From NCBI GenBank assembly GCA_030248295.1, contig JASANH010001039.1, positions 1,302,001 through 1,366,000 on the forward strand: 64,000 nt of DNA, read 5' to 3'. A program made the translations under genes and the position numbers. Positions within the stretch are counted from its first letter, which is position 1. Every line of letters begins with the position of its first letter. This DNA is from Mesodorylaimus sp. YZB2_4. Its lineage: Eukaryota; Nematoda; Enoplea; Dorylaimida; Dorylaimidae. A model generated the notes under the pieces. The model saw nothing but the letters and a program-made list of their open reading frames with translations, was not told the DNA's origin and did not search any database. Shown here piece by piece: positions 28,876 through 53,024 of this stretch.

Positions 28876-30252
28876 TCAAGCGGTATTAGTTTTAGTCGTT
28901 GTTGCGCCATCTGAAGTTGTTGCTGTGCCACTCGAGCTCCCCGCTGTGCTACCTGAACTCGTTGCTGTGCCTCCTGAACTCGTCGCTGTGCCACTCGAGC
29001 TCGTTGCTGTGCCATCTGGACTCCCCGCTGTGCTACCTGAACTCGTTGCTGTGCCTCCTGAACTCGTCGCTGTGCCACTCGAGCTCGTTGCTGTGCCATC
29101 TGGACTCCCCGCTGTGCTACCTGAACTCGTTGCTGTGCCTCCTGAACTCGTCGCTGTGCCACTCGAGCTCGTTGCTGTGCCATCTGGACTCCCCGCTGTG
29201 CTACCTGAACTCGTTGCTGTGCCTCCTGAACTCGTTGCTGTGCCACTCGAGCTCGTTGCTGTGCCATCTGGACTCCCCGCTGTGCCGCCTGAACTCGTCG
29301 CTGTGCCGCCTGAACTCGTCGCTGCGCCGCCTGAACTCGTCGCTGAGCCAGCTGAATTCGTCGCTGTGCCGCCTGAACTCGTCGCTGTGCCTCCTGAACT
29401 CGTTGCTGAGCCATCTGATTGTGAGCTCGTTACTGTTCCATCTGAGCTCGTTGCTGTGCCACCTGAACTTCGTGCACCTCCCGCTGCAGTCGTTGCGCCT
29501 CCCGCTGCTATTATCGCTGCTGCACACGGCAGGCTGGAAATAATGCTGTCGAAACCGCTCTCCACTTCAGCCCAAGTCGATGTGCCTGTGTTATATGGCC
29601 TAAAAAAGCTGTCATTACTATAAAAAAGGGTGAGACCTATTCTATCTTACTGGGGTGCTCGTGTTCCAGGTTCAGCTTTATAAGTACATTTGCATGACAT
29701 TTCTAAATCTGCAGCTGTTTTACCACCATTGAGTCTCTTTAAATTTGTACACTTTATCTCCTTGACTGAAACTCCATCTTCGTTTTGCACTGGAGCATAG
29801 CATTTTGCAAACCAAAACACTTTCGCTGCTGGTATGTCCTTGCTAAACACGCCATTGCCTCTGAATTTGACATCTTTAGCTAAAATGAGTGAAATTATTG
29901 GAACATCTTAAAGCACAATTCCGAAGAAAGTTGGAAAAAGTTTTTGCTCGGTAGTTGTCTACTTACTTATCTCGCTTATTTCTCTCCTGCAAGCTATCGC
30001 CTTTTCGTTCATTCCTTTTGCATACTCTTTCCATTCTGTTGCTGTAAGAAAAACAATAACCCGTATTATAGCGTTTCACAGGTTTAAAATCTTGGTCTGG
30101 AGAGAATCTTGTCATATCAAAATGCACATGACAAGGTTACATGGATTTGCCAAAAAATTCCTACTTTGAAAATATGGTGCGCATCCAATAGCTTCTTCAG
30201 TAATAATCAATAATATAATCAGAGCTAGAAGCTGACAGTAACTAACAGCCAT
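28876..30252 (-). CDS. secreted Cys-module and Ser/Thr-repeat protein, paralogue A
   Basis: Exons (minus) 30252-30165, 30041-29967, 29879-29651 and 29599-28876 join with phases 1, 1 and 2 to give 371 residues. Exon 1 is a signal peptide ending near AIGCAPYF. Exon 2 (75 bases) codes a helical TTEWKEYAKGMNEKAIAC segment. Exon 3 codes the cysteine domain with FRGNGV, FAKC and LEMSCKCTY. Exon 4 opens with PYNTGTSTWAEV and LPC, then about 210 residues of Gly/Ser/Thr-rich repeats (GTATSSGGTATSS type) to a stop. The spacer should be heavily O-glycosylated, mucin-like. Two cysteines present in paralogues B to E are replaced (GNGVF, VFWFAKC). It has only one cysteine module. A TATA-like run lies at 30301-30311. 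I do not recognise the family, so function is unknown. Confidence 0.82.
28919..29480 (-). repeat. 84-base coding tandem repeat in gene A
   Basis: Near-identical 84-base units start at about 29012, 29096, 29180 and 29264 on the plus coordinates, each coding 28 residues (GTATSSGSTAGSPDGTATSS type plus SGTATSSG). Sub-units of about 27 bases sit within each. The units differ by only a few bases, which implies recent expansion or gene conversion. The periodicity keeps several frames open on both strands, which are not genes. Confidence 0.9.
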
Positions 30253-30300
30253 GCTGTTTGCTAGGGCTTTTTGGGCAGAATATTCGGACAACACATTCCG

Positions 30301-30311
30301 CGTATATATAG
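30301..30311 (-). promoter_or_regulatory. TATA-like box upstream of gene A
   Basis: On the minus strand the sequence CTATATATACG lies about 50 bases before the gene A start codon, a plausible core promoter position given a short leader. Confidence 0.5.
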
Positions 30312-31800: not shown

Positions 31801-31849
31801 CGTTTCGAATTTTACTGAGCATAAACAGACGCAACGTTGCGCAAAAAAA

Positions 31850-32603
31850 TCATCGTAATCATTATGCTATGCTCTTTACTCTCTTGCCAAACACTTATTA
31901 GTGCACTCAAACGGCAGAGGACATGTGAAGAAAGAACAATAAAAGGAACTAAATATCTAGCGAATCACCTGAGAAACATGACGTCTAAACGCATCGGATG
32001 AACCAGAAGCAATATCTCTGGGTATCTTGTCAGTGTTCCAAAAAATCTTTAAAACAGAATATTCAAAACAATGCGCTTATGTGCTCTTGAAGACAACCGG
32101 ACTTTCGAGGAGTGCTCTTTGTTTAATCGCTCTCTAAAGCGTCTCCCTGAGTCCGATGTGTGGATAAAGCGATTATTTGGATAGCAAGCATGACCGTGGT
32201 AATACTTGTAGATAGAACTGAATTACCTTCAGCTGGTTACGGCGTGCCTCCAACGTAGAAAATCCAATTCTGCCATAGCCTCTTCATAAGGCTTGCTCCA
32301 GTCGTTAAGAATTGATCGAGCAGCAAGCTTTTGTACACTTTCAAGATCTTGGATTAGATTAGAATGGATTGGTGACCAAGCGCAGAATCCATATTCGAGC
32401 TTCGGAAGGACACACTGCGTGTAGACCACTTTCAGAATTTTACGTGCGAACTTCCCAAACTTTCTTCTGAACGCCCCGATCATCCTTCTGGCTGAGTTTG
32501 CAACTTCGTGACAATGCTCTGCGACTTTTTTTGGTGTGAGCCACAATAATTTGGAAACGCTTGCACTCCAAACTGATTCTGGTGCATCTTCCTTCATCTT
32601 CAT
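31850..32603 (-). pseudogene. LINE ORF2 3' part and 3' UTR (forward half of a twin-primed insertion)
   Basis: The minus strand codes ARRMIGAFRRKFGKFARKIL, then VYTQCVLPKLEYGFCAWSP, the thumb/C-terminal region of a CR1/Jockey-type reverse transcriptase. After frameshifts it ends with IPRDIASGSSDAFRRHVSQV. A 3' UTR follows with GAGTGCACTAATAAGTGTTT, which resembles the tails of the S-family SINEs. It abuts the oppositely oriented 5' half at 32603/32604. Confidence 0.75.
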
Positions 32604-34535
32604 GGTCGTTTATATTCCATCAAAAATCCAAGCAGCGGTTAATGCTTTGTCTAGTTGTTGTAGTCAGGAGTTTCGGACTAGCAGCAAGCGGCTGGTCATG
32701 GTCGGTGACTTAAATGTTGATTTTCTTCGCCCATCATCTGCAAAAAATCCCTTATCGATCTCGTCCCATCCATAGATGGAATACAAACTGTGGACAGCCC
32801 GACTAGATCAGTTTCTGGAACTCTACTCGATTTGGTTATTATAGGTGAACCTTGTCGACATATTTCAACCACGATAGACCCTCCTATTCACACTTGAGAT
32901 CATTGTTCGCCATCAGTCACCCTTCAGCGTGGTACCCTGCGGAAGCCGAAGGATCTTCGTTTGACATGGAAATTACGAAATGTAAATTGGGAACTGGTAA
33001 ATCAGGAAATCTCTGCTGATGTGTGTATTGATTTGGTTCAGTCTGCACCTACAGTAGACGCAGCATGTGATCAATTATTTTCACGAGTTATGAATGTGGT
33101 GATCAAGCGAATACCCCGTAGACAAGTTCATCGTGATAAGCAGCATCCATGGATAACTTCTGAGCTACTTCGTCTAATTCGAGAGAAATCTTCCGCCTTC
33201 CATAAATAGAGACAAAGCAAAGATCCACAGGATCACCAATGGTGTTCTCGTTTGCGACGACAAGTCAAGAAAAACGTAAGATGTGCAAAACAGCAATGCA
33301 TCGAGCAACAATTCAACGAAGCGCACTCCCCGAGTGAATTCTGGGCTACATTTCGACGATTTCAGCCCGAAAATCGATCTATTCCGACTCTGGTCGACGA
33401 CTTTGGCGGGTCATACTTTACCTCTGCAGCCAAGGCTTAATTGTTACAAGAATGTTTCTCCAAAAACTTTCAATCAAATCCAAACGAGAAGCAATTCCAG
33501 CTTCGATATCATGACCCAAACGACTATTTAAACTCAAGTTTTTCCGTCTCTGAGAAATTTGTCCGTCGTCAATTAGCATCCTTACGGCTTCGGGGCGCCC
33601 CTGGTCTGGATGGACTTACCGCACCTATTCTTCGCAATATTTCCTCTTCAATCGCGCCAGGCCTGACACTTGTAATAAACCGATCAATGGCAGAAGAAGT
33701 CTTTCCATCCGCTTTCAAAACGGCCCAAGGAGTGGCCAATCCGAAACCAGGGAATAGGTCTGACCCGAAGAATTACCGGCCGATATCCCTTCTGCCGCTA
33801 CTTTTTTGAAAGTTATGGAGGGCCATGTATTAAAATTACTGCAACGGCGTCTTCATCTATCGTATAATCAACACGGTTTCAGACGAAGATACTCTACCAC
33901 TACTGCTCTGATCAGGGCTACGCAAAGTATTCACGACTGGTTAAATTCTTCCACATACCGAGCTGTTGGTGGAATATTTTTCGACATAAAGAAGGCGTTT
34001 GACAAGGTTTCTCACTATCAGCTTCTCCAAACGCTAGAGATAGCAAAAGTTACCGCGAAAATTGTTGGCTAGGATCGCGTCATTCTTAACTGGGCGTTCT
34101 CAATTCACTTTATTGGAAGGCTGCGCCTCGCCAACGGGGCCTGTAGTTTCAGGAGTGCCACAAGGCTCCCAGCTGGCGCCAATTCTGTTTACGGCATTTA
34201 TCAATCATATCCTTGAAGATTTCACGAAAGAATTTCCAGATGTTCTCCTTCAGGCCTATGCTGACGATCTGGCACTGCTCTGCCCTGTGTTAAAAAATGA
34301 TATCCTCTGCAATGATTTCCAGGCTGCGATTGACTGGATAAAGAAGAAAGTGAACGATATCGGTCTTGAATTTAACGCTGTTAAAACTCAAGGCTGTTCA
34401 TTCCACTTTGGACGCTTGCAATCTAAACCGATTCTCAGGCTCGATGGGAAGCAGATTGTTTTCACTGACACTGTGAAGTACTTGGGTGTTCAGCTCTCCG
34501 CAAACATGCAATTTCGAGAACACTGGTAAAAGGCG
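32604..34535 (+). pseudogene. LINE endonuclease and reverse transcriptase (inverted 5' half)
   Basis: The plus strand codes the second half of an AP-type endonuclease (VVYIPSK, VMVGDLNVDF), a linker with WITSELLRLIREKS, and reverse transcriptase (GAPGLDGLTAP, NYRPISLLP, FFDIKKAFDKVSH, VVSGVPQGSQLAP, AYADDLALL, VKYLGVQLSANMQFREHW). It then stops abruptly where the thumb should follow. In-frame stops near 33207 and 33438 and frame changes near 32800-32960, 33805 and 34065 make it dead. The missing thumb is found in the opposite orientation immediately to the left. Confidence 0.85.
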
Positions 34536-34539
34536 ATGA

Positions 34540-34870: not shown

Positions 34871-35017
34871 TAATTGCTGTGAAGATGATAGCTGATCGCG
34901 ACTCTGATGACATCATGCAAGCACGATAATGCAGTTCCTTTACTTATAGAAATGAATGGCATAGAAGGCGAACGAATATCTGCGTGAACTCTGCGATGTC
35001 TATTCTACAGTAGTTCG

Positions 35018-38000
35018 TTAAGCGCAGTCTAATTGCTCAATCGTATCTGTTATTTGATCCTCGATATCGTCCATCGATTTCCGTGGGGTTTCGAACCTAA
35101 ATGGAAGAGCACCTTTCCGCACTGGAAATTAGCCAGTAAATTTTAAACTTACGGCTCTTTATTTGGCGAAACGCATGTCCACCGCATATATATCTGTCCT
35201 GGTTCAATTCCTGGCTCGCTCACTTCGAATGTCGAACATTTAATACCAGTTACTGGTTCTTGGCTAGAAGCCTGTTTCTGGCATTCGTTTGCCGCGTAAT
35301 ATTGTATAATAATATGCTCTTTGCATATTGCATTTCCTTCCACATTAATTTTTTTTACTAAAGTTTTCAATAAGTTAGTAAGATGTTAGGCGGTCAAGAT
35401 ATATTGGACCAATACCTGTATCGTTAATGGAAACTTCGCACTTGTTATCGTGGTCTTTTATCAGGTCTAATTTTTCCTTCCAATCTGCGCCTAGAAAGTA
35501 AATTGTTATGTAAACTATATCTGCCAGAAAAATTATGCCAGAAAAATAAAACCTGCTAAAAGATTTCTAACCGTGTGTGACGCAGGAAAATCGCAAATTT
35601 GTGTAGCAGAGCCAAACCTACCTTGGAAATATTTTGCATTAAAATCAGTGCCAGCTGAACCAGTTGTTGTGCTTTCTTCACCCGCTTCACTGCTTGGACG
35701 TGTGCTACTCGGTTCTTCATTGCTTGCACTGGTTGGCTTATCACTGCTTGCAGTGACTGGTTGTTCAGTGCTTTCACTTGTCTCTTCTTCACTCCTTGAA
35801 CTGGTTGGCTTTTCACTGCTTTCAGTGACTGATTCTTTAGTGCTTCCACTTGTCTCTTTTTCACTGCTTGCACTGGTTGGCTTTTCACTGCTTGCAGTGA
35901 CTGATTCTTTAGTGCTTCCACTTGTCTCTTTTTCACTGCTTGCACTGGTTGGCTTTTCACTGCTTGCAGTGACTGATTCTTTAGTGCTTCCACTTGTCTC
36001 TTTTTCACTGCTTGCACTGGTTGGCTTTTCACTGCTTGCAGTGACTGATTCTTTAGTGCTTCCACTTGTCTCTTTTTCACTGCTTGCGCTGGTCGGCTCT
36101 TTACTACTCGGTTCTTCACTGCTTTTACTCATTGACTCATCAGTGCTGGGCCCCTTACTGATCGGTTCTTTATAGGTTTCACTGCTTGGACTACTTGCCA
36201 GCCGACTATTCGTAATTGCAGGCTCTTCACTGCTCAGACCCTCACTGCTTGGCTCTCTACTTCTTGGTTCGTCAGTGGTTCCACTGGTTGGTTCTTCATT
36301 GCTCGGCTCTTCACTGCCGGGCTCTTCGCTGCTATCTTCTTCACTGCTAGGTCCCGCACTAGTCTGCTCTTCACTGCTTGGACCTGCAGTGCTCGATTTT
36401 CTTGGATCTGTAATGTCTGCAGTGCCTGCAGCGCTTGAGCCTGCACTGCTCGATTTTCCATTGTCTGTATTGGTAGTCACAGTGACACTGCTATTCGTGA
36501 TGGTCGAAATTCTTTGTGATGCTTCTGGCACAGTGGGTGTGGTCATTGCAGAGCATGGCAAATCTTTCATTTGATCAATGAAGTTCTTCTCGACTGCTGC
36601 CCATGTGAACAGTTCTGTCCTGTAAGGCCTGAAATCAAGACGTCACAATTTAATACTGTGCTTAAACAACATAGTCCACCTAAGTGGCAGCAATTGCTGC
36701 ACTCACCTCGGTGTTCTCCTTCTATTTCCAGCCTGATAAACACATCTGCAACTCATGCGCAATTGCTCAGGTTTCTTTCCAGGCCGTTCGATTTTGAATG
36801 GTGAACAATTAATATCCCACACGAGTAATTCTGGATTAAATCCCTTGTGCTCCAAACAGCGTAATTTGCAATAAACTTTTGCAGCTGGGATTTTCTTACA
36901 GACTTGATTACCTTTGTATCTTGTATTAGAAACTAAAAAAATCACTTTGTTAATTGATACTGATTGCAGTGAAAAAACCATGAGCACCGCTACTTCAACA
37001 CAGATGGCCAAAAAAAATTTGGCCAGTGCGCAAAAACCATGATGCAGTCTGGTTTTCGAGATTTTGACGAATTTTAGTGAACAGAACCAAATTCAAAATG
37101 CGTTTATTAAATTCGGCATCCAGTTCTGAGCAGACAGATATGTATAAGGTGATAAATAAGCGCCAATTCAAGTTTTGCGCACTGGCAAATTTTTTTGGCC
37201 ACCAGTGTAGCAGCGAGTACAGTATGTATCATGAGATATGATGTATTGCGATGATCTGACCCATGATTTGTGACTTACCTGCGCCATAACAGATGGCCTG
37301 TGTAACTGACCAACCTGGGACCTACTGTACCTGATGATTTGCGACACCTGGAACTTGGGCACAGCACAAGCAGCGCTGCCCTGCAGATGCAGCAGAATGT
37401 CTGATTTGGACATAAAAAAATTGCTTACTGATCTGATTGAGTTCATTGTGGCACAGTTTCGCCCAATAATCGAATTTTATTTGCTTATATTTCCATTCAG
37501 CTGCTAAAAACCAGTAAAACTTGTATGCTGTGTAGCGTTGATATGGACTCGAAAGATATAGACATGATTTAGATATCTATATCCCAGAACGATATAGATA
37601 TACATATGAGTATTCAAATCATTAAAGCGTATCTTCGAAAAGATGTGAATATATATTTATTTGAGATATGGTTCTGAAAACTCCAAAATCCCAACTATTC
37701 GATGAAAATCTGAAAACGTTGAAGTCGAAAAAAAGACTTTACTTTTGACTTTTTCCCAGACACGGTGGCTCACATCGGCTGCGGTTGTTGCGGTAGCTGA
37801 TCTCACAGAGAAAGCTCCAGTGACCTGATCTAGTTAGGTTACATAACTTGCTAGCCTCATGCACATTAGAACTGCAGAAGCTGTGGGCTTGTGGTCGATC
37901 AGCTTGGCTGGCCAGGTCTGCGGGCTCCAGGTGATCCTAGTCCCCGCGCTGACGAAACAAGGCGGAGTTGACGATCCAGGAGATGTATGCCGGATTACAC

Positions 38001-39296
38001 ACGAATTAAGGTTACAGAAAACTCCCTACTCGTGCAATGAAAAGACGCTTTTTGCATGCAAAGATTTATAAGAATTCTTATGCAGTAAGTTCACGGCAAA
38101 AATCAAGGCAGCTGAAGTTCTTGTCAAGACTTGTCATACTTCTTACGAATCCAATGAGATTCTTCTCATTCATACGTGATGTCGTGCGAAAACTAGGTTC
38201 TTATACGGTTTCTTATCGGTCCTCATAACGTTAAGTAGTGCCAAGAAGTATCAGCGTGGGTACATTGCAGATAGAAAGAGGCACCAGTCAGACACTGCCT
38301 GCAAGAGGCTGGTGAAGGAAGACACGAGGTTGCCAAATTTTAATCATGAAATAATCTTTGGATATTTGAACAGTCACAGCTGCAAACTTTCAGACCATTC
38401 AGTGCACCTGTGCTCACTGGCTGGGAATGTCATCTGATGTTGGTTTTCTCGCCCGTGTGATAGAGTACGCCTCACATTGGTAGTTTACAGTACCTGCGGA
38501 TGGCATCATCAAAAGCGCAATATACGTAGGTGCTGTGGGATTCTGACAAGTTTTATAACTTCCTCAACCGCACGAGCTCCAAATCAGTGTGATTGCTGCA
38601 AACAGCAGCAACACTGGCAACCTGAGTCACAAATAATAGGTAAACCAACTTTCGAATTATGGGCTGGCTTAGCTACGGCCAGGTCACCCACCTCGCCGAG
38701 GTGACTCTATTTGCAATTTCTCTCATCCCAAACACTTATCACTGCACTCACAAGGGCGGTTCTCTGTTGGGACTCTGTTGGCTTGGTTTGACCTGTCAAT
38801 GTGTACCCGCCTTCAGCAACACGCCAAAGGCACAAAATAATCTTTCTGAAAATATCAAAACATTCGCTAAGCCGATGCAAACGGCGCGCACACCCTTGCA
38901 TTTGGGTAGCCGAAGGATTGTCAAATAATCATATCTCATTAAAAGATGATTGATATGGATATCCAAAGCAGCACTAAAACTATGCTATACTGCATTTGCC
39001 CTGAAGTTAAAAGTCTGGAGTGCGGTTAAAAGCTTTAAAAAACCGTTGGCTAAGATGTAGAAAAAATGTGACCAAGGATATATGGCAAATTTTAGCTGAA
39101 ATCTAAAGGTAGATGGCCCAAGAAATTTTTCATACTGGTAGCCTCTCCAGCAAAAGTGAGCACGCAGGGATATTTATCAGCACCTACAGCGGCTACAACA
39201 GTCCACTCGCTTACTTCTAAAATATGCCGCACATCCAGCTGCTTCTTTTGTCATTGCTAGAATTGAAATAACTAAAAGCCACTGGTAAGCAGCCAT
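35018..39296 (-). CDS. secreted two-module Cys and Ser/Thr-rich protein, paralogue B
   Basis: Seven exons on the minus strand (39296-39215, 37503-37429, 36932-36707, 36628-35622, 35490-35416, 35357-35153, 35096-35018) join in phase to give 582 residues. Order: signal peptide ending AAGCAAYF; a 75-base helix exon with Trp and Cys; a Cys exon (RYKGNQVC ... MSCRCVYQAGNRR); a long exon that begins PYRTELFTWAAVEKNF and continues into a Ser/Thr/Glu/Pro-rich spacer of about 300 residues with 24-residue repeats (KPTSASSEKETSGSTKESVT); a second 75-base helix exon (ADWKEKLDLIKDHDNKC); a second Cys exon (VEGNAIC ... WTCVS); and a final helix-Cys exon ending EQLDCA. The spacer should be extracellular and O-glycosylated. 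Intron 1 (about 1.7 kb) carries repeats. The function is unknown. Confidence 0.85.
35800..36090 (-). repeat. 72-base coding tandem repeat in gene B
   Basis: Four units of 72 bases (starting at about 35803, 35875, 35947 and 36019 on the plus coordinates) code 24-residue Ser/Thr/Lys/Glu-rich repeats. The middle units look identical. Shorter degenerate units continue to about 36470. Confidence 0.9.
37004..37206. mobile_element. short Tc1/mariner-like MITE between gene B exons 2 and 3
   Basis: The left end has TGGCCAAAAAAAATTTGGCC followed by AGTGCGCAAAA. The right end, on the minus strand, reads CACTGGTGGCCAAAAAAATT followed by TGCCAGTGCGCAAAA. The CACTGGTGGCCAAAA start and the TA after the right end fit Tc1-type termini. 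About 140 bases lie between the arms, so it is non-autonomous. Confidence 0.55.
38640..38790 (-). repeat. LINE/SINE tail fragment, gene B intron 1
   Basis: On the minus strand GTGAGTGCAGTGATAAGTGT followed by TTGGG matches the 3' tail of the LINE near 31.9 kb and of the S-family SINEs. The rest of gene B intron 1 shows no other recognised element. Confidence 0.45.
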
Positions 39297-40613: not shown

Positions 40614-43425
40614 ATGGCTGCTTACCCTTGGCTTGTAATAGTTTCTTCAATCTTGGCTGTGATGAAAGAAACAGCTGGATGCGCACCATATTTTAGGAGT
40701 GAGTGAGTGAATACTGTAGCTGATGTGACGGGGAGAAAATAGTTGTTTACAGGGTCACATTAATTGTTTACCAAATAACGTTACTTATCGACCAGCTTAC
40801 CTGCAATTTTGAAAGATGCAGTGCAGCTTGATGAATTCACTTTCTTTTCTGTGTGTAAGTTTCCTAAATCTTAAATACAGTCTTCTGGAGAAGCTTAAAG
40901 AGTCAAAATAAGTCACAAAGTGTGTTTTGTCCTGGATCTTTTCATTTATTGAACACTTTTCAAGTTTTTTACACTTTTCAGCAGATCAATGGAAATTTAA
41001 GCAATCACAATTTGATTCCACGACAAAACAGTGCCAGCGAGAAGTCGATGAAATAGGTATGCGAGTTTTGTTATTTTTTGTTCCTCAGATATACAGAGCA
41101 AGTTTTAGACCCAAGGTACGTCAAAAGTGAACTGAGCCGCGGTGGCTCATTGTCAGTTGATAGACTTACAGTTAGCACCCTGACTGGGAGGCCGCAGTTC
41201 TAGTCAAGCTGAGGACAGCACTTTAGTGCCCTCGCTGGCCTTGCACGCGTACTAGGGAACATCGCCAACTGTTACGTCGAACTCTCGAAAACAAAAAATT
41301 GAAAGATTTTCCTTGGTGCAAGAGCAAGCTCTGTGCTAAATATTAGAGGCGTCTGGCCAATTGGTGAGCAGTGGTCAGTGCTTAGAAAACAGCGAAATTT
41401 CCCTATTTTGGTAGATGTTTTGGGGTTTTGCAGGAAAAAACACCGAACCAGAATGTTGGAAGCTTAAACTCGAAACTCCGAACTTAAAAACCGAGTTTGT
41501 AAAGAACTCTGCATGTTTTTCTCAATGCTCGGCTCCCTTACCACACAAAAATCTAGGACCTTAGACTCTGACCAGTTAGTTAGGCGCCTCCAATACAGTA
41601 TTTTGCTCAGAACTTTCATTTGCACCCAGGAACATGTTACAATTTTTCGTTTTGCAAAGCTCGACTAAAGAATTGGCGATGTTCCCTTGTTAGCTCTCAC
41701 AAAGCAAAACGAGTACAGAATCACGAAACTGGTTCTCGAGCACCAGTCGGGAAGGCCCTAACCCAACGCCCAGTATCATCCTGGGAGGCTGGTGCTGGCA
41801 CAGGATGCGCTCCTGTGGAGGTGATCCTAGTGGAGGCTCACAGAGGGAAGCTGGGTGAGAGCTGGTCACCTCACGGCCTCGCTCATCATAGCATGGCTGC
41901 TGGCCGGCTATAGGAAAAACGGGTTGGAAGTCCCGTGGGGAGCTTGGCCAGCGCAAGACCAACGCACAAAAATTTAAAAAAACAGCATAGATGAACAGTT
42001 AAGCTCAAAGTATAGTTCCATTCGATGCGTCGAAGAATCGTGCGATGCGACACTTATGCGTGAACTGACAATGTAAAAAGGTACCTAAAACGTCGCATCG
42101 CAAGCTTATTTGACGCATCGCATCGAGCTATATAGATACTTTGAGCTCTAAGTTATCACCACACAGATCATATTTCGACCTCTACAGATTCTACCTTAAT
42201 CACCAAACACTCACGATCAGTTAATTACAAAAGCACAGTAAATTTGCTTTTTCAGTTTCTGGTACAAGATTCAAAGGCAATCGAGCCTGTAGACAGATCC
42301 CAGCCGCGAAACTTTATTGCAAACTACGCTGCTTGGAGAAGGAGGGATTTAATCCAGAGCTATTTGTGAGAGAAATTTATTGCTCACCCTTCAAAATCGA
42401 ACGACCTGGACTGACACCTGACCAATTGCGTATGTCATGCAAATGTGTTTATCAGGCTGGAAATAGAAGGAGAACACCGAGGTGAGTGCTGAAGTTTCTT
42501 CAATGTAGTATACTTTGTCATTATGTGCTGTATATACTGCACATATGTAATGCGAGTAGAGTGTGGTACCAATACTGTAATTTTAGGCCTTACAGGACGG
42601 AACTGTTCACATGGGCTGAGGTCGAGGAGAAGTTCGTTGAGCAAATGAAAGTGCTGGCATGCTCTGCAACGACCGCAGCCACAGCGAGGCAAACGTCACA
42701 AAGAGTTTCAAAGATGACCACAAAAACTGAAGTCGAAACAAGCCGTGCAACCTCAAGCTTTAAAGCAGAAAGCACAACCACTGACTCATCCAGCAATGAT
42801 TTCAGTGCACCATATTTCAATAGTGAGTTCATCTGTGCTCCGTAAAACCTGTTGCCTTTATAGCATGAAGTATTTGAAAACCACGGTCGGTTATTTTTAT
42901 TATGACAGTTCTGCGGCTCACTTCATGTAAAATTCTGTTTTCAGGCTCAGACTGGGAGGAGGATTTAAATTCACTAAATAGCGTCGATGAAGACTGTGCA
43001 GATTTCTTTGATAAAACAGGTAATTGGCGATAGTGTTGTTAATTTATTTGCCGCAATGGTAAAAATTATTGAATTTTTAGTGAAAAATTTCAATGTGCAA
43101 GGAAATTCTGTATGCACACAGCATACGAGTCTACAATATTACGCAGCATATGAATGTGTCCCTTCTCATCCAGAATTAGTTACTGATATTGAATGCTCGA
43201 AATTTGAAATGGGCGCCACAGGGGAGGAACCTGGAGATTTATTTATTTTTTGGACTTGCGTTCTGCAAAATAAAGTGCCGTAAGTTCAAACTTTGAAATC
43301 ACTGATTGCCAACTCAGACATTTTCCCCATTTAGAGTCGAAATTCCAAAGAAATCAATTGACGATATTAGGGGCCGTTTCGAAACCTTATTTGGTGAAAT
43401 AAATTGCAAAGTAGAGATTGACTAA
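40614..43425 (+). CDS. secreted two-module Cys and Ser/Thr-rich protein, paralogue C
   Basis: Exons 40614-40698, 40982-41056, 42256-42481, 42587-42822, 42945-43019, 43081-43279 and 43335-43425 join in phase for 328 residues. Signal peptide ends ETAGCAPYF. First module: helix exon (DQWKFKQSQFDSTTKQC), Cys exon (RFKGNRAC, LYCKLRC, YCSPFKI, MSCKCVYQ), then PYRTELFTWAEVEEKF and a Cys. The Ser/Thr spacer is only about 55 residues with no long repeat. Second module: helix exon (SDWEEDLNSLNSVDEDC), Cys exon (VQGNSVC, AYECV, IECSKF, WTCVL) and last exon (SIDDIRGRFETLFGEINC). It is head-to-tail with D and divergent from B. Intron 2 (1.2 kb) is filled by repeats. Function is unknown; an extracellular structural, cuticle or saliva-type role is only a guess. 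Confidence 0.87.
41137..41960 (+). repeat. R2 repeat, copy 2, split by an inserted element
   Basis: 41137-41247 matches the 5' part of copy 1 (ACCCTGACTGGGAGGCCG) and 41685-41960 matches its 3' part (GAGCACCAGTCGGGAAGGCC, GAGCTGGTCACCTCACGGCC). Between them lies the GGGAACATCG element. It is in intron 2 of gene C. Confidence 0.6.
41248..41684. mobile_element. GGGAACATCG inverted-repeat element, copy 2
   Basis: It starts GGGAACATCGCCAACTGTTA and ends AATTGGCGATGTTCCC. The interior shares many phrases with copy 1 at 24773-25180 (GGCGTCTG, AGCAGTGGTCA, GAACCAGAATG-like). There is no open frame for a transposase. Confidence 0.7.
42001..42151. mobile_element. short MITE with AGCTCAAAGTAT termini, gene C intron 2
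   Basis: The left arm reads AGCTCAAAGTATAGTTCCAT and then CGATGCGTCG. The right arm is the complement (CGACGCATCG-type motif, then ATAGATACTTTGAGCT). Internal GCGATGCGAC units are also inverted. About 150 bases in total. Confidence 0.6.
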
Positions 43426-44549: not shown

Positions 44550-47182
44550 ATGGCTGCTTCCAAGTGGCTTCTTGGTGTTTTTATCATCGCAATTATCAAA
44601 GAAGCAGCTGGATGTGCGACATATTTTAGAAGTAAGTGGGTGAAAGTTCTGTAGTCGCTGTGATAACAAAAAATTTTTGATGTAGGTTTACTGTAGAGGC
44701 AATCAGTTTGCTCATGTTGAGACTTTTGCCTCTTGAAGGTGCCTGAAACTCTTCAGGGGTGAGGTGAGGACAGTTGGCTTAGTGGGGCAGTAGAGGAACA
44801 GGCCGCTGAGTCAGATCAGCGATCTCTCTTCCAGTGGGACCACCCATCGCGTTGTCCATCCCATTCGGGAGAAGCGCAGACCAGGCTCATGCTCTTGTTC
44901 CTGGTCTACCACATCACCAAACGCTTACGCGCACTCAATATTGAAAGGACACATTAGACACAAGGCTGAGAATAGAAGATGCACGTTCCAGCGCACATGG
45001 CGTGCGAGGCAGATGCCCAACCCACCAGGCCAGGGCGACCAGCCAGTAGCCTCTGCAGTCGTCTTTCCATTTGCTTCATACAGGAGAGTCCGGGAATCGA
45101 CTTGTCTGGATAGGACTGTTAGTCGTGCATCGCCTTGCTCGAGAAGGATCCTCCCGGTGCTGAGTCTTTATTGTGCCATCGACAGTGGGACAATGCGCCT
45201 AGGCATCGTTGAGCCCGATGAATTCAATCTGCAGCCAAGCTACTGTGCTATTGCAAAGAGCAGCTGCAAGCACCTAAGGGAGGCACAAATGAAGGATTTG
45301 TTGAGGAATCGGGGTCTTAATGCTTGATACTATGCAAGATCCCTTCCTACTGGGCTTGGGCTGATGGGAAGATTTGCACCGATCGCTTGTAAGATCGGCC
45401 GAGTCCGCCGTCGCGTGAGCGTGGGATATCATACGCCACAACAACTATAACCTCTTGGCCCATATTACCTGCAACTTTCGATAAAATTGCGCGTATCACC
45501 AGCCCCAGATCTCGATTACTTTTTCATACGCTGCGCTTTTTTAATTAATCTTCAATAATGCATTGTAAAATGTCAGAATGCCAAAAGGCCTAATGCCGAA
45601 GACCTCTTAAATTATGGAACGTTTGCGCAAGCTTACAAAATTTTGCATTTTTAGCAGCTGAATGGAAACTTAAGCAATCGACATTTAATTCTTTGACAAA
45701 ACAATGCCAGCGCGAAGTCAATGAATTAAGTAAGCCTTTCTTTCTTTTTTTTCAAATCAAGAACTCGCACAAAACTCTTTTCATCTGAAGTCAGTTCACA
45801 GATGAGCAGCCAGGTCATCACATCACACACAGGTCATACTGTACATATTTTCTACTCTCAGCCTAAGAGACAGTTAGTTCCAAATAAGATAGGGTACATA
45901 GTGAATTCAAGAGGCACTAAGGGGACTGTATGAGTCCGTGAATTTGCTTTTCCAGTTTCTGGTACAAGATTCAAAGGTAATCGAGCCTGTAGACAGATCC
46001 CAGCCGCAAAACTTTATTGCAAACTACGCTGCTTGAAGAAGGAAGGATTCAATCCAGAGCTATTTGTGAGAGAAATTTATTGCTCACCCTTCAAAATCGA
46101 ACGACCTGGACTGAAACCTGACCAATTGCGTATGTCATGCAGATGTGTTTATCAGGCTGGAAATAGAAGGCGAACACCGAAGTGAGTGCTAAAGTTTCTT
46201 CAATGGAGTATACTTTGTCATTATGTGCTGATACTGTACATATGAAATGCGAGTAGAGTGTGGTAACAACACTGTAATTTTAGGCCTTACAGGACGGAAC
46301 TGTTCACATGGGCTGAGGTCGAGGAGAAGTTCGTTGATCAAATGAAAGCTCTGTCTTGCACTGCAACGGCCACTAGTGTATGGCACAGCGGTAGTAGCGC
46401 TATTACTAGCACGATAACTGGAATTGAAATAAGCAGTGTGGTCCCTAGCGGTCCTCAGACTAGTAGAACAAGCAGTGAAAAGCCTACCAGTCGAGTAGAA
46501 AGCACAACCAGTGGCACATCTGGCAATGATCCCGATATTCCATACATCAAAAGTGAGTTTCTGACCTTGCTTAAAACCTGTGCGCCGTTGTGGCTCGGAC
46601 AGCGTGATTGAATATAGTTGCTCTGGCTTTCTGTTTTCGTGTCCCTTGATTTTTAAGGCTGCATTCAGTGTATTTCTGTCTTCAGGCTCAGAATGGAATG
46701 ACACCTTGGACGAGATTAAAGAACAGGGCGAAAACTGTGCAGCTTCCATCAATGAAAAGGGTATTTGGCAATTTTTACATTGTGCCCTTATTTGGGTTAA
46801 AAGTACAACGGTTATTATTTTTTTAGCGAAAAATTTTAATGTTGAAGGGAATGAAATATGCAAAAAGTATAAACTGATACAATATTACGCGGCACTTGAA
46901 TGTGTTCCTTCGAATCCAGTGTCGGTTACTAATATTGAATGTTCGAAATTTGAAAAGGGCTCGACAGGAGAGGAACCAGGAGATGTGTATATTTCGTGGA
47001 CTTGCATTTCATCGAATAAAGAGGAGTAAGTTTGAAAATTAAATCTCCATAGATTATTTGTTGAATGACAACAAATAATTTATCTCGAATTTAGAATCAT
47101 CATTGCAAAGAAGTCAATTGACGATATTATGGATCGCATTCAAGATATGATTCCAGCATTGAACTGCGAGTATTTAAAATAA
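44550..47182 (+). CDS. secreted two-module Cys and Ser/Thr-rich protein, paralogue D
   Basis: Exons 44550-44631, 45655-45729, 45956-46181, 46284-46552, 46686-46760, 46827-47025 and 47095-47182 join in phase for 337 residues. It is the closest relative of C: exon 3 and the start of exon 4 are almost the same in both, including intron edges, which suggests gene conversion or recent duplication. Signal peptide ends EAAGCATYF. Module 1 has AEWKLKQSTFNSLTKQC, RFKGNRAC, LYCKLRC and MSCRCVYQ. The Ser/Thr spacer is about 65 residues. Module 2 has SEWNDTLDEIKEQGENC, VEGNEIC, ALECV, IECSKF and WTCIS, and the tail ends near ALNCEYLK. Intron 1 (1.0 kb) holds an S-family SINE and an R3 repeat. Function is unknown. 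Confidence 0.87.
44876..45038 (-). repeat. tRNA-derived SINE (S family), copy 2
   Basis: On the minus strand it has TGGCCTGGTGGGTTGGGCAT, then further down ATGTGTCCTTTCAATATTGA and GTGCGCGTAAGCGTTTGGTG. It lies in intron 1 of gene D and matches the copy at 11110-11286 along its tail. Confidence 0.65.
45177..45420 (-). repeat. R3 dispersed repeat, copy 1
   Basis: On the minus strand it contains AAGACCCCGATTCCTCAACA, also present at 49107-49126 and, diverged, at 60392-60410. The end near 45177 (CACTGTCGATGGCA) matches CACTGTCGATGGCT at 60533. I do not know what the repeat encodes, if anything. Confidence 0.6.
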
Positions 47183-48283
47183 TTCAAATGCTTATATCAT
47201 TTTATATTTTACGTTTATATCATTCATTTATATCATTCTTCGAGCTCGACTTTCATTTCTCAACGATTAAAAAGTAGCGAAGCGGGATTTTCGTATGCAT
47301 GGTATAATGTCTCCAAATCTAAGCAGCTCTAACATAGTTAATACCATAACAGCTATGAGAAACGACACCAAGCAGGCAGCCTAACGCCGTTTGAATTCAC
47401 TGTGTTATTCGAAATCAACTATCTCTTAGGCAGAGAGTATAAAGTAAGGTATGGCCTGTGATGTGATGACCTGGCTGCTTATCTGTGATTTCCCTGCGGT
47501 CTAAAACTTATTCCAGATTCAAAGAATTCTTGTGTGAATTCTTGATTTGAAAAAAAACAATAAAAAGCGCTTACTGTACGCATTTCATTGACTTCGCCGG
47601 CATTGATTCGTCAAAGAATTAAATGTCGATCTTATAAATGATCTCCGATCGACCGATAACCCCTTCCCCCCTTATTCCTGTGGTACACCATGGGGAGGGT
47701 GGGTGAGGGAATGTTCCTATGGGTGGTACAACATGGGGGGGGGGGGGGGAAGGTGAGGGGATGCTCTTCTGACGCCAGCCAGCCAGACGTTTCGCGGTTG
47801 ACAATGCCCCTGTTATGAAGTTGGCTACGGTTTAGACTGAACCTACGTAACCTGACCACACTACACTGTGACACTACTTTCTGACTGGTCCGAATCGTGA
47901 ATACGGACTGTATCGGCCACCGTTGCCCCTGCGACAGCCACACGCTCGATACATTGAACTCGGACTGAAAACCAAAGACGAATGAATCTACGTTTACTTT
48001 GCCGACTGCTCGAGAGTAACCGTGGTGATGACACCGGCCTTACACATAGAAACACGCCGCCTTTCATACTGAACCTAACGCACACACGTCTAGCCACTAT
48101 TTTACATGAATTACAGAAATCATCTTGAAAATCCAGTCTTTCTCGCAAGATCGAGCAGTCGGTGCACTGGAACCCAATGAACAACGATGAATGAGGTCTA
48201 CAGTATGCAGATGAGGTTAGGTCCAAAGTCAAGCCTATCGTTGATGAGGTCTGCACACCTTTCCAAGTGAAAGGGGAATAATT
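47183..48283. other. intergenic; degraded inverted copy of gene D intron 2 region
   Basis: 47428-47500 on the minus strand resembles 45790-45890 (GATGTGATGACCTGGCTGCT is shared). A G-rich inverted patch lies at 47690-47760. The frame at 47861-48256 on the minus strand has no domain and I do not call it. Confidence 0.45.
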
Positions 48284-48857
48284 CAGCTGCTAAAATGCAA
48301 AATTTTTTAAGCTTTGTCGTACTTGCGCAGACGTTTCATAATTTGAAAGGTCTTAGCCATCAGGCTTTCTGACGTTCTGACGTTTTTACAGAGTGTCTCA
48401 TGAGTTTTGTCGCGTGGTCGGTAGGCCACGGAAAATCGAATACATGTCTGAATGCAAAGATTTTTGGCAAAAACACTCGTCATTCACATAGCAACACATT
48501 AAAAAACCATTCACTCGAATCGGTTACCCCTAGCACGAATCACTGCCCTCAGTATCCTGGGCCAAGCATTGGTCGAGGCACGAACGTGATTCATCGACAA
48601 TTTGTCCCATTCTTTGATTAACTTTCGTCGAAGAGATTCCAAACTTCTGTGATAAGTAGCATTAACCCTTGCCTCGAGATAGCCCCAAATCGAATAACGC
48701 AGGGGATAAAGGTCCGGCGACGAGGATGGCCACTCTTCCTAGTTTTTATTCAGCTGCTAAAATGCAAAATTTTTTAAGCTTTGTCGTACTTGCGCAGACG
48801 TTTCATAATTTGAAAGGTCTTAGGCATTAGGCTTTCTGACGTTCTGACGTTTTTACA
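48284..48857 (-). pseudogene. two antisense copies of the gene D intron 1/exon 2 junction around a mariner fragment
   Basis: 48284-48391 and 48750-48857 are almost identical direct copies of about 107 bases. Read on the minus strand they match 45555-45665 in gene D: the end of intron 1, the acceptor TTTTAGCAGCTGAAT and the first bases of exon 2, after which both copies diverge. They are therefore non-functional gene fragments. The first copy is interrupted at a TA by the mariner end. Confidence 0.6.
48511..48738 (-). pseudogene. Tc1/mariner transposase C-terminal fragment
   Basis: The minus strand codes EEWPSSSPDLYPLRYSIWGY and then LESLRRKLIKEWDKL, ending AVIRARGNRFE and a stop. This matches the C-terminal catalytic region of Tc1/mariner transposases (WPPxSPDLNPLDYxxWG), with YPLR where the family has NPLD, so the last acidic residue is lost. 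The 3' end TACAGAGTGTCTCATGAGTT near 48389 looks like a terminal inverted repeat at a TA target. The 5' three quarters are absent. Confidence 0.75.
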
Positions 48858-48989
48858 ATGCATTATTGAGGATCAATTTTAAAAGGCTTAGCGTAGGGAA
48901 AAAATACAAAGATACTCGAGCTCTAGGGGTTAGTGATAATGTTCTGCGCGATTTTATCGAAACTTGCGGGTAATATGGGCCACGGTCGA

Positions 48990-49432
48990 TCCTATCGATC
49001 CTATTCTTTGCTCATGGCGAGTTCGCGGTGATCTTACAAGCGAGCGGTCCAAGGTTTCTTATCAGCCCAGGCCTTGTAGGAAGGCATCCTGCAAAGTATC
49101 GATCACTAAGACCCCGATTCCTCAACAAATCCTTCGTGCGTGCATGCCGTGTCTCTCCAACGGTAAGGTGCCTACAGCTGATCTGTGCGAGTTCACCCTG
49201 GCAGTTGAACTCACTGGGCCCCACACAATGCCTAAGCTGGTGGACAGTTCCAGTCGATGGTGAAGTAAGGACTTCAATCGACACCAGAGGATATCTCTGT
49301 AGTCCTAGATCTTATCCAGAGACAAACCAAGTACCTGCCTTGAGTCAATTCCTGGACTCTTCCGGCAAAACCAGAGGAAACGACAGCAACAGATAGAGTT
49401 CTCCTAGAGAGCATGCTGATCGAAGTCCCTGG
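48990..49432 (+). repeat. R3 dispersed repeat, copy 2 (host of the TRIM insertion)
   Basis: Together with 48858-48990 it is an inverted counterpart of 45177-45540 in gene D intron 1. It also resembles 60290-60760, including CCTAGATCTTAT and CTGATCGAAGTCCCTGG versus CTAATCGAAGTTACTGG. It is cut at 49432 by the TRIM. Confidence 0.6.
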
Positions 49433-50066
49433 TGTAACCCTCGTGCCTGGTAGGCCATGGCGAGTGGGAGAGAGTAATCGATACTCTCCCCTGGCTGGGA
49501 AACGTCAACCCCTCGGGTTGATGTTTCAGCCGTAGGTATAGTCGCAAGACTATCCTGCTCCAGTCGGAGTTTTTGTCCCGCCGACTTCGGTCGGCCGCCT
49601 CCCTCCTACGCCTGCCAGGCTTGGTTACATTGGCGTCACGGACCTTGGGGCCATCCATTATGGTGTAAGTCCCCGTCGGACCGCTGGGTGCGCCCATGTT
49701 CGTCACGGTCTAGGGCGTCTAGTACCGACACCTAGGCCTCGGTTAGCCACCGAGGAGCGGGTACCGTCCGCATTGCGAAGGCAGTGTAGGGTCGGCCCTC
49801 AAGAGAGGGGGAGGTCTTCCTTCCGGGAAGAGCGACGGGGGTCGTCGCTTCTTCTGTCGATGGGAGGAATGTAACCCTCGTGCCTGGTAGGCCATGGCGA
49901 GTGGGAGAGAGTAATCGATACTCTCCCCTGGCTGGGAAACGTCAACCCCTCGGGTTGATGTTTCAGCCGTAGGTATAGTCGCAAGACTATCCTGCTCCAG
50001 TCGGAGTTTTTGTCCCGCCGACTTCGGTCGGCCGCCTCCCTCCTACGCCTGCCAGGCTTGGTTACA
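49433..50066 (+). mobile_element. TRIM: miniature LTR retrotransposon with identical 197-base LTRs
   Basis: Two 197-base direct repeats (49433-49629 and 49870-50066) appear identical base for base, start TGTAACCCTCG and end CTTGGTTACA. The 240-base interior begins one base after the left LTR with TGGCGTCACGGACC, a possible tRNA primer-binding site starting with TGG. It ends with GATGGGAGGAA, a polypurine tract directly before the right LTR. CTGG flanks both ends (49429-49432 and 50067-50070) as a 4-base target duplication. There is no coding capacity. The element is far more G/C-rich than its surroundings. Identical LTRs imply a very recent insertion moved by another element's proteins. Confidence 0.85.
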
Positions 50067-51788
50067 CTGGCCGACCGCGGACAGGGGCCGCCGGTCGCCT
50101 AGTAGACCTGGCTTGGTTTGTTGGGAAAGGGCGAGTAGACCAGCCACCCTAAGCCCTGATTCCACTGTGGCATTATTATAACCTGGCTAAACTTTAATTG
50201 ATCTGTAATAATATAGAACACATATATAATAATATATTTAATATACAATAATATATAATAAATATAATTAATAATATATAATACATATATAATGAATATG
50301 ATATTTAATATATAATAATATTTTTGATGTGTATATGTGATATGTAGGTGATTCTGCGATAACAGGATTTTGGAAATAATTTGCTTTTCCTTGAACTTTT
50401 AGACTGCAATGATCTTTTATTAGCGTTTTTTATAATTTAATTTTATGTCTTGACCCCATAAGTCACTCAAAAAATGGTTTTGAGGTGCTCGGGGCTACTT
50501 GTCGTCCACAAGGAAGCCCAATATTTTGAATTCTCTGAATAGCGCGTAAGCTTCCTCGACTATAATAATTATACGAGATATGGAAGCTATAGTAGGATGT
50601 GGAAAATGATAGACTTTGTGTTGGCCTGAACAGCCATCTTGGCAAGATCTGTTTCAAAACTTTTTCAAACAAAGATCTTTGCAACAACATCAGGCAGATT
50701 TGACGAAAAAAATTGCAAAGATCTTGACAAGAAAAGAAGATTTGGGAAATATGGGATATGATTAACCAGACATAATCTTAGCAGCTCTGACGTAGTCAAT
50801 ACCATAACAGCAAGCGTAAATGTATGCTTGGAATTTTTATGGTAGATGCATTCATAATGACTGTTAAATATTATAACAGGCATATTAAAGTTTAGTTGGG
50901 TTTTAAAAATGCCACACTACTGGATCATACTTTACACTGACCATTCGTGCTGTGCAATCGTATTAGCTGATACTATTGCAATCACATGCTTCCTATTGAT
51001 GATTCTCTGATGATGGTGCTTTAGCTAATACTGTATGCTAGCTCGCAGACATTTTTGGTTGCCAAAATCAATGTCACTGATATCATCCTCGTTATGACGC
51101 CACTACACTTTTGCTACCCCAACTAATGTATTCCAGTACCGCACTTTGTTGTCAAAGCATTATTATTATATGACACATGAAATCACGCACTACATGTCAA
51201 TATTCTGGAGTTTACGATGCTCTGCTGTGAAAATACGTCTGGTTGGCGAGAGCAGCAAAAAATTTTGAGCCCTTAGCATTATCGTACAGTGTTTTGAGAA
51301 AGAGATGTGTAACAAAATGCGTTATGAAGACATTCTGATCACATGGCTTTAGAAAAGTGCACGGCTGATACTCACGCTGTGTATATATATACAGCATAGT
51401 ATAGCATAGGCTACATAAAGCATAGTTCTTAGTTGTACATTGGAAATATGCATACTTCCAAGTCGTTATGAATAAAATTGTGGTTGTTACGCGTAGTAAT
51501 AATAGTAAGCCAAGACTGAGGCACCCCCTGTCTTTCCCATCAACCGTACAACATTCATTCTGGGTATTTATTCATCTAATGTCACATACTGAAATGACAC
51601 AGAACCAAACGAAGAAAACACTGCTTTGAATACCATTATTTTGAGGTGGTCACTGAAATGAAAAAGTCTGAAAAATTAAACTGTCTAAGAAGACATACTG
51701 CATTCAACCTGGAGTAAGGACAGCCCCGATTTTTGGCTTGTGCCTACTGTAAATATGCTATTATAAAATTAAAAAGGGCAGAAGACAC
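50067..51788. other. intergenic, no gene recognised; A/T-rich tract
   Basis: 50195-50345 is an AT-rich run of TATAATA-type units. 51050-51090 faintly resembles 44045-44100 downstream of gene C (CACTGAAATCATT-like), perhaps old duplicated 3' flank. No coding chain was found. Confidence 0.45.
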
Positions 51789-53024
51789 TTAATACTGTCC
51801 GTCTCTGAACATACGAAGCCTCAAGGCACTTGTAGGGGGGGGGGGGGATTTTTGCTTTTGCAGTGCTGAGAAAAGAAAGCAATCCATAAGAACAACAAGA
51901 TCTGCCTCACTTTCCGATTTAGTAGACCCCGTTGTCGTTTCAGCAGCAGGACCGCTCGAAATGGTGCTTACATCAGTCGACTTGCTGTTAGTTCCTGGAA
52001 GCATACACGTGTTCTTCAAATATTGGTCAGCTCGCTTTTCCAATTCTATCCAAACGAATGGCCCAGCTTCGATAGGTCTAGATTCAAAAAGTACACCTTT
52101 ATGTTGTATCAAGATTTTTAAAGTTTAGGGAGGCTTACTGGGACAAAATAGTATCATCGGAGCTGAACGTGCATCTGCATGTCAGATGTAACTGCCACTC
52201 TGCCGTTCCGCGACCATCGATTTTCAAGGGTGGACAATTAATTTCACTCACAGTCACGCCAGGCAAGTATGGATCAGTGGGAGGCGCTACAGGAAATACT
52301 TTCACGCATTCTTGATGGCAAAAGAATTGTACAGCTTTATAATCCGTGCATACAGGATTGCCTGTAAATCTTGTGTTGCGAACTGAAAAACAAGGTATTT
52401 AGTCGCAGCTGCTCGATCGTACAGCTTTAATGTGCACTAATGCTGCAGGCTACGCTAGGCCCAGGTCGTTGTCTAGCGGTTAAGGCGTCTGCCTCTTAGG
52501 CTGGGTTTCCACTTACAGAGGAGGGTTCGACTCCCGCCTGGGTAAAAAATGATAAGAGATGCTTTTGTTAGCCCTCGAGTGCGCTGTACAGTGCTTGGCT
52601 ATGGATAATTATGACATGACAAGAGGCTCAGACATTCAGTATAAGTGAACACCAGACGGATGGAAGGGGACTCAGGATCAGAGCTAGGTAGATATGACTA
52701 CTTGATTTGCAACTAGCAACAAGATGCAAAAAAATTCTGTTCCGCTTATCTGAACCTTTCAACTTGAAAGCTGACCAATAACGAGCATTTTCTTCAACAA
52801 ACTCACGTACATACCTTCTTGATTAATTTCCGCGTAGCAATTTTTTTCCAACAAATTGAATTTTGCTTGTTTCTTTTTCCATGCTTCACCTTAAAGGTTT
52901 ATTACATTTAATCTTCAGTTTGCAAACCTTTTTTTTAAATTTTACTTTTGAAATATGGAGCGCATCCATCAACCATGGCGTCCATAAAAAACAGAAGTAT
53001 CCAAAAAAAGCATTTTAAAGCCAT
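51789..53024 (-). CDS. secreted single-module Cys protein, paralogue E
   Basis: Exons (minus) 53024-52946, 52889-52815, 52382-52139 and 52077-51789 join in phase for 228 residues. Signal peptide ends MVDGCAPYF. The 75-base helix exon reads EAWKKKQAKFNLLEKNC. The Cys exon keeps all six cysteines (RFTGNPVC, VQFFCHQEC, EINCPPLKI, LTCRCTF). The last exon opens PIEAGPFVWIELEKRA with a Cys, then a short Ser/Thr stretch, and ends in a tail that includes four Pro encoded by a C-run (the plus-strand G-run at 51836-51847). That homopolymer makes the last 20 or so residues uncertain, because one slipped base would change the tail. No second module was found downstream. A TATA box (GTATATAAAA) is at 53091-53100. 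Confidence 0.78.
52458..52605 (+). repeat. tRNA-derived SINE (S family), copy 3
   Basis: The head reads GGCCCAGGTCGTTGTCTAGC and GGTTAAGGCGTCTGCCTC, with a perfect B-box GGTTCGACTCC at 52524-52534 and a partial acceptor stem (CCCAG with CTGGG). The tail CTCGAGTGCGCTGTACAGTG then CTTGG matches the other copies. A clean anticodon arm cannot be folded, so it is a SINE and not a tRNA gene. It lies in intron 2 of gene E. Confidence 0.7.

Follow-up and report, generated by a model that had tools for sequence, protein, structure and literature searches.

The closest described counterparts of the gene family that we report here are eight-cysteine proteins of the cysteine-stabilised alpha-beta (CS-alpha-beta) superfamily, namely plant defensins, drosomycin and long-chain scorpion toxins. 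One source describes the cysteine framework C..CxxxC..C..CxC as a prerequisite for the CS-alpha-beta fold (PMC5234102). In another, the cysteines are ordered in a ten-cysteine array; drosomycin, plant defensins and long-chain scorpion toxins have C1 and C10 as their fourth pair, and the scorpion toxins have a long C9-C10 arm ahead of C10 (PMC5116183). A GXC gamma-core motif at C6 is general in the superfamily, although it is not obligatory. Here, we analysed a stretch of 64,000 nucleotides (the window; positions 1,302,001 to 1,366,000 of contig JASANH010001039.1) from the nematode Mesodorylaimus sp. YZB2_4. It contains five adjacent genes, A to E, whose products are predicted to be secreted and carry one (A and E) or two (B, C and D) copies of a cysteine-rich module, the two copies flanking a Ser/Thr-rich spacer.

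We propose that these proteins have an enlarged CS-alpha-beta (defensin-type) module and act as defence proteins, and we give this reading a probability of roughly 0.4. The part on the fold is moderately supported, whereas the part on function is what we infer beyond it.

Cysteine framework and predicted fold

The cysteine spacing is 18,9,3,16,18,1,36 in the first modules of B, C and D and 18,9,3,23,18,1,34 in that of E. In these four modules (four of the eight modules and four of the five first modules), the inner six cysteines follow C..CxxxC..C..CxC and an outer pair is additional. The outer cysteines match C1 and C10 in the ten-cysteine reference array. The four modules then resemble the eight-cysteine CS-alpha-beta proteins in the order C1,C2,C3,C4,C6,C8,C9,C10, in a predicted helix followed by two strands that bear CxxxC and CxC, in the outer pair and in a long arm between C9 and the last cysteine (PMC5116183).

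We modelled the contiguous cysteine exon of D (exon 3) with AlphaFold2, using an alignment of eight family rows. The model has a mean predicted local distance difference test (pLDDT) of 82.5 and a predicted template modelling score (pTM) of 0.66, with strands (E) and helices (H) at E4-7, H9-13, H15-29, E35-42 and E61-67. By position, C21 and C25 (CxxxC) lie in the helix, C42 ends strand 2, and C61 and C63 (CxC) lie in strand 3. The core is thus predicted to be a beta-alpha-beta-beta unit whose helix bears CxxxC and whose last strand bears CxC. As far as element order and cysteine positions go, this agrees with the superfamily pattern of a CxxxC helix and two antiparallel strands after it, CxC being in the final one. 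The cysteine exon of the second module of D gives the same order of elements (pLDDT 80.8, pTM 0.64), and A21 (helix) and W57 (last strand) take the places of C21 and C61 of the first module.

The number of cysteines per module is even throughout (six or eight in 8/8 modules). All three second modules have Ala (helix) and Trp (last strand) at the sites of the two core cysteines that they lack. C3 and C8 were thus lost together, a pair that a CS-alpha-beta fold would join, and the models suggest that the second modules keep the fold despite the loss of one predicted cysteine pair. The module of A is without C2 and C3; its leftover C6 and C8, the expected partners of these two, would lie on neighbouring strands and could pair. 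A loss of cysteines that are not a bonded pair is also described for the ASABF 6-Cys-alpha peptide (PMC5116183).

These observations suggest that the module is likely an enlarged CS-alpha-beta domain with putative disulfides C2-C6, C3-C8 and C4-C9 and a putative outer C1-C10 staple supplied by the flanking exons. We do not claim formal membership in the superfamily because GXC is absent, four modules break the framework and our comparisons gave no structural match; rather, the module likely folds and works like such a domain. The sequence-only reading had seen no motif of a known family. This stands for profile and database matches, but not for the cysteine order of the first modules of B, C, D and E and the predicted beta-alpha-beta-beta unit.

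Other described systems share fewer features with the family. Nematode ABF/ASABF peptides and mollusc-nematode defensins are likewise nematode, secreted and of CS-alpha-beta cysteine order, but the ABFs have C2-C6, C8, C9 and C10 (an extra core cysteine and none before the core) and are small single peptides with no mucin-like spacer. The atypical defensin-like peptides of Zymoseptoria also have a conserved gene plan and, in some, an altered cystine framework (PMC5234102); they are fungal, small and single-domain, and we set them beside the family by description only. A likeness to evasins and cystatins was considered and dropped on cysteine spacing and element order.

The gene family, its spacers and its relatives

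The five genes were rebuilt from the raw sequence (positions 28876-53024 of the window; Table 1). The models agree with the sequence-only reading in the open, in-phase joins, in the signal peptide ending GCAxYF and in the number of modules per gene: all 24 introns are GT-AG, each of the five coding sequences is a multiple of three in length with one terminal stop, and GCAxYF is present in 5/5 first exons. Exon phases recur across the genes (0-1, 1-1, 1-2, then 2-x), and one exon plan is common to all eight modules. The shared 75-base phase 1-1 exon of that reading is exact in A, C and E and before the second modules of B, C and D, whereas exon 2 of B and D has 75 bases with the acceptor TTTTTAG and 72 with the AG three bases further. 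With these two adjacent AGs, all eight modules can have a 75-base exon. Secretion is predicted from the hydrophobic N-termini (peak 9-residue hydropathy 2.77-3.89). If it were retained after processing, the cysteine of GCAxYF would make the cysteine total odd; it would be lost if cleavage occurred after GCA.

The 3' end of gene E is the least certain part of the models: exon 4 holds a phase-1 GT donor at 51910, which resembles the donors of B, C and D and suggests a further exon. A scan of 47200-51950 (minus strand) for another phase 1-1 exon of 66-84 bases with W..C turned up a single candidate that does not convince, and no second module for E was found there. In intron 2 of E, a transfer RNA-like sequence can be seen by eye (52460-52545, minus strand); ARAGORN finds no transfer RNA in the window.

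The proteins had also been called mucin-like, a label that is best suited to A and B and weak for C, D and E. The tail of A has 52% Ser plus Thr (S+T) and an 84-base tandem repeat (5.9 copies), and the spacer of B has 43% S+T and a 72-base repeat (5.4 copies). The spacers of C (53 amino acids, 43% S+T) and D (64 amino acids, 42% S+T) are short, the tail of E has 27% S+T, and exon 4 of C, D and E contains no tandem array at score >=50. Thus, A and B resemble secreted mucins in their tandemly repeated Ser/Thr-rich stretches, but the family differs from mucins in the short spacers of C and D, in the low proline content of the Ser/Thr-rich stretches (2-8%) and in that no family protein has a mucin-associated Pfam domain at its cut-off. 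Judged from composition, the spacers are probably O-glycosylated.

Relatives were sought in several collections. Among 5.8 billion proteins, including nr and UniRef, neither D (843 candidates) nor the eight-row module alignment (497 candidates) had a match at E<=10; this search considered lengths of 0.55-1.75 times the query, so that single-exon open reading frames of metagenomic relatives would be missed. Contigs of prokaryote genomes gave 80 pattern matches, none of which was confirmed. The DUF19 / T20D4.11-like profile (PF01579) matched 0/8 modules, and the SEA domain is absent from their Pfam results at E<=10, which list two families, both below threshold. As judged from titles and the starts of abstracts, none of the papers listed in our literature searches describes this module family. 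The sequence-only reading had proposed a multigene family of predicted secreted cysteine-module proteins with Ser/Thr-rich spacers and without known relatives, and this is supported: no hit passes a Pfam or NCBIfam cut-off, the PDB gives none by sequence at E<=0.001, and the protein collection with nr and UniRef gives none.

We also searched the host genome (an assembly of 145,146,385 bases in 1067 contigs, with the cluster on contig C5), where only the best candidates were scored and remote members may be missed. All matches of D (18/18) and of the second module of B (8/8) lie inside the cluster, as do 7/8 matches of E (the other on contig C39, E 0.066) and 7/9 of A (the others on C68, E 0.074 with two TGA, and C393, E 2.3). 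Significant matches are thus confined to the cluster. The loci on C39, C68 and C393 were rejected as family members, as no module was present in the frames examined. In a frame on C68 (locus L042), a Cys-rich stretch is followed by a long one rich in Ser, Thr and Gly, then by a hydrophobic span and finally a basic tail; this is like a membrane mucin and not a family member, and the locus on C393 (L043) is seemingly a related copy on the opposite strand. The Pfam profile Defensin_2 found nothing above its cut-off in the host genome (best E 0.489).

Charge, proposed function and rival readings

In the genome search, the second module of B retrieved the module 1 exons of B, D and C (E 0.0016-0.0057), and 11 alignment columns, five of them Cys, are invariant across all eight modules. 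From these sequence comparisons, we conclude that the two modules are homologous. Between genes, the modules of B, C and D are 43-88% identical (second modules 43-50%). The ratio of nonsynonymous to synonymous substitutions (dN/dS) in module 1 is 0.33-0.37 among B, C and D and 0.23-0.43 over the 10 pairs of A-E, with dS saturated in pairs involving A or E. It is 0.39-0.55 in module 2 (3 pairs) and 0.55-0.97 in the spacer (3 pairs). The paralogs are thus under purifying selection. In a tract that runs from exon 3 through intron 3 into the first part of exon 4, C and D are 94% identical, against 79-85% in their other matching pieces; the likely cause is gene conversion.

The two modules of a chain differ in charge. 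The net charge (K+R-D-E) of the first module is +13 in B, +8 in C and +13 in D, that of the second module -10, -15 and -8, respectively (Fisher test of the difference: p 0.010, 0.009 and 0.021, for three related, non-independent proteins and with the test picked after the numbers were known). All three second modules are acidic though they are only 43-50% identical. The single modules of A (+3) and E (-1) are near neutral, and mature B has -26 overall because of its spacer. The homology of the two modules, their opposite charges, the conversion tract and the limited likeness of C, D and E to mucins had been left unremarked by the sequence-only reading.

How might such proteins act in defence? 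The basic heads would hold anionic microbial surfaces, and a linker rich in Ser and Thr, which is probably O-glycosylated, would keep the heads apart. With Ala and Trp in place of the C3-C8 pair, the acidic head of module 2 would keep the fold, and its surface would be free to change. Its acidity would let this head act as a latch that shields the basic head of its own chain until it is pushed aside by a microbe; alternatively, it would dock onto the basic head of the next chain and so build a mesh. Within this mechanism, we prefer the latch. A and E would be single-headed forms. A further reading is that of two-headed defensin-mucins: one glycosylated chain would carry a basic, defensin-like head with four disulfides and an acidic head with three, which would latch or polymerise through their charges and open when they meet microbes. 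We consider this reading unlikely.

Several results weigh against a CS-alpha-beta fold. No family sequence reaches a Pfam or NCBIfam cut-off, and neither the PDB sequence search nor Foldseek with the D models against solved structures gave a match at E<=0.001 (VIA realignment covered Foldseek's top chains only). No defensin-fold chain is among the structural matches listed, which we do not count as evidence. The AlphaFold2 model spans one of the three exons of a module. The module of A and the second modules of B, C and D have six cysteines per whole module, lack two core cysteines each and depart from the framework; I-x-C stands at C6 in 8/8 modules, GXC in 0/8. The C4-C6 (16-23) and C6-C8 (18) loops are longer than those of the eight-cysteine proteins; the family further differs from these in its extra flanking exons and in having two modules per chain, a Ser/Thr-rich linker and the pair loss in module 2. 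In favour of the CS-alpha-beta reading, CxxxC and CxC occur jointly in 0.4% of draws when the four inner cysteines are placed at random, but this figure is after the fact, as the match was spotted post hoc. A profile comparison detects no relation between the module family and a tandem CS-alpha-beta gene close to E (described below). The module could instead have an unrelated fold, alpha + beta-alpha-beta-beta + alpha of the ferredoxin, KH or SEA type, with disulfides of its own, and form a globular knob on a mucin-like protein. The incomplete framework in four of eight modules and the lack of GXC fit such a fold, as do the flanking exons, which add predicted helices foreign to classical defensins. 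The only structural look-alikes listed are ribosomal L22 and pY/HPF-type beta-alpha-beta-beta proteins, all of them weak; these look-alikes, together with FtsQ, ToxR, NOS and others, were dropped as weak and mixed. SEA domains adjoin mucin stretches, but neither SEA nor another domain was found at the Pfam cut-off. Furthermore, in the model the helix carries CxxxC and the last strand CxC, and module 2 has lost two cysteines that would be bonded to each other in a CS-alpha-beta fold. We thus regard an unrelated fold as doubtful, if well worth keeping in mind.

The other two rivals concern function. The proteins could be structural glycoproteins of the surface coat, eggshell or mucus, in which the basic module 1 docks onto the acidic module 2 of the next chain to form fibres, and antimicrobial action would not be their role. 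The opposite charges in B, C and D, the repeat-rich stretches of A and B and the faster evolution of the spacers are compatible with this role, but A and E have a single module without a partner, the spacers of C and D are short, and a five-gene cluster with a conversion tract looks more like an interaction family; we find this role distinctly improbable. Lineage-restricted secreted cysteine proteins are common among the feeding secretions of stylet-bearing nematodes, and the host belongs to such a group, the dorylaimids (COX1 78% identical to Longidorus and Xiphinema). A secretion of the feeding apparatus that acts on the food organism is nevertheless the least probable reading, as no homologue was found in nr/UniRef, whose share of Longidoridae transcriptomes is uncertain. 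The reading that we prefer remains that of secreted defence proteins with an enlarged CS-alpha-beta module.

Features of the window and host context

Table 1. Genes, exons and a shared tract of the cluster, in window positions
Feature	Position	Strand	Basis
Gene A, 4 exons, 371 aa	28876-30252	-	rebuilt model
A exon 1: predicted signal peptide, GCAPYF	30165..30252	-	gene model; peak 9-residue hydropathy 3.89
A exon 2: 75-base phase 1-1 exon, outer Cys C1	29967..30041	-	gene model
A exon 3: Cys exon, 4/6 core Cys (two lost)	29651..29879	-	gene model, Cys spacing
A exon 4: outer Cys, then Ser/Thr-rich repeat tail up to stop	28876..29599	-	composition, repeats
Gene B, 7 exons, 582 aa	35018-39296	-	rebuilt model
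B exon 1: predicted signal peptide, GCAAYF	39215..39296	-	gene model, hydropathy
B exon 2: 75-base exon (72 with next AG)	37429..37503	-	gene model
B exon 3: module 1 Cys exon, six core Cys	36707..36932	-	gene model, Cys spacing
B exon 4: module 1 end and 310-aa Ser/Thr-rich spacer, 72-base repeats	35622..36628	-	composition, repeats
B exon 5: module 2 75-base exon	35416..35490	-	gene model
B exon 6: module 2 Cys exon, four core Cys	35153..35357	-	gene model, Cys spacing
B exon 7: module 2 end and stop	35018..35096	-	gene model
Gene C, 7 exons, 328 aa	40614-43425	+	rebuilt model
C exon 1: predicted signal peptide, GCAPYF	40614..40698	+	gene model, hydropathy
C exon 2: 75-base exon	40982..41056	+	gene model
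C exon 3: module 1 Cys exon, six core Cys	42256..42481	+	gene model, Cys spacing
C exon 4: module 1 end and 53-aa spacer	42587..42822	+	gene model, composition
C exon 5: module 2 75-base exon	42945..43019	+	gene model
C exon 6: module 2 Cys exon, four core Cys	43081..43279	+	gene model, Cys spacing
C exon 7: module 2 end and stop	43335..43425	+	gene model
Gene D, 7 exons, 337 aa	44550-47182	+	rebuilt model
D exon 1: predicted signal peptide, GCATYF	44550..44631	+	gene model, hydropathy
D exon 2: 75-base exon (72 with next AG)	45655..45729	+	gene model
D exon 3: module 1 Cys exon	45956..46181	+	AlphaFold2 model of residues from 45958-46179; Cys spacing
D exon 4: module 1 end and 64-aa spacer	46284..46552	+	gene model, composition
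D exon 5: module 2 75-base exon	46686..46760	+	gene model
D exon 6: module 2 Cys exon	46827..47025	+	AlphaFold2 model of residues from 46829-47023; Cys spacing
D exon 7: module 2 end and stop	47095..47182	+	gene model
Gene E, 4 exons, 228 aa if read up to first stop	51789-53024	-	rebuilt model
E exon 1: predicted signal peptide, GCAPYF	52946..53024	-	gene model, hydropathy
E exon 2: 75-base exon	52815..52889	-	gene model
E exon 3: Cys exon, six core Cys	52139..52382	-	gene model, Cys spacing
E exon 4, up to first stop	51789..52077; 51911-52077 if 51910 donor used	-	gene model
C/D likely gene-conversion tract	C 42238..42671, D 45938-46368	+	94% over 434 columns

The tandem CS-alpha-beta gene lies about 6 kb from E (59217-59612, plus strand). 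It is a single-exon gene for 131 amino acids with a hydrophobic N-terminus and two domains, C-x7-C-x3-C-x9-C-x10-C-x-C and C-x7-C-x3-C-x12-C-x14-C-x-C, each with a GXC. It reaches no Pfam cut-off and has no second copy in the genome at E<=1.

Elsewhere in the window, the left edge (1-3633) has an open reading frame that resembles a Ty3/Gypsy-type pol. Between A and B (about 32200-34600) there are interrupted reverse-transcriptase-like frames. Exons at 53670-55844 (plus strand), adjoining E, look by eye like those of Abraxas/FAM175. Between D and E, a 202-base stretch (49433-49634) is repeated exactly 437 bases on (49870-50071), and a 110-base stretch at 48281 recurs at 48748 (98%).

The host COX1 is 78% identical to those of Longidorus vineacola and Xiphinema rivesi and about 60% to those of insects; six other proteins rank above the named ones, the best of them at 83%. 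The nematode-typical families TTR-52 and DUF19 have 27 and 4 matches above the cut-off in the host genome (DUF19 with none on contig C5) and 0 in 14 control genomes, which are prokaryotes so far as named. COX1 and these families indicate a dorylaimid nematode; a tardigrade or mite origin was also weighed and set aside in view of COX1 and TTR-52. COX1 itself has 15 matches on 11 host contigs, many of them partial and with stops under the standard code; as they are spread over so many contigs, some of the pieces are probably nuclear mitochondrial copies.

The Dorylaimida fall in clade 2/I (clade 2 for Longidorus and Xiphinema; PMC5664137), and antimicrobial peptide genes are reported as scarce in clade 2/I nematodes (PMC10506718). 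Given this scarcity and the tandem CS-alpha-beta gene, we regard the region as a candidate innate-defence locus, a lead rather than a result. The cluster and the tandem gene are concrete candidates for antimicrobial peptides of clade 2/I nematodes, which makes the suggestion of such peptides in clade I testable. The pair of homologous modules with opposed charges on one chain yields a clear biochemical prediction. If true, two-headed defensin-mucins would be a new animal immune effector and would fill a gap in the sparse set of antimicrobial peptides of clade I nematodes.

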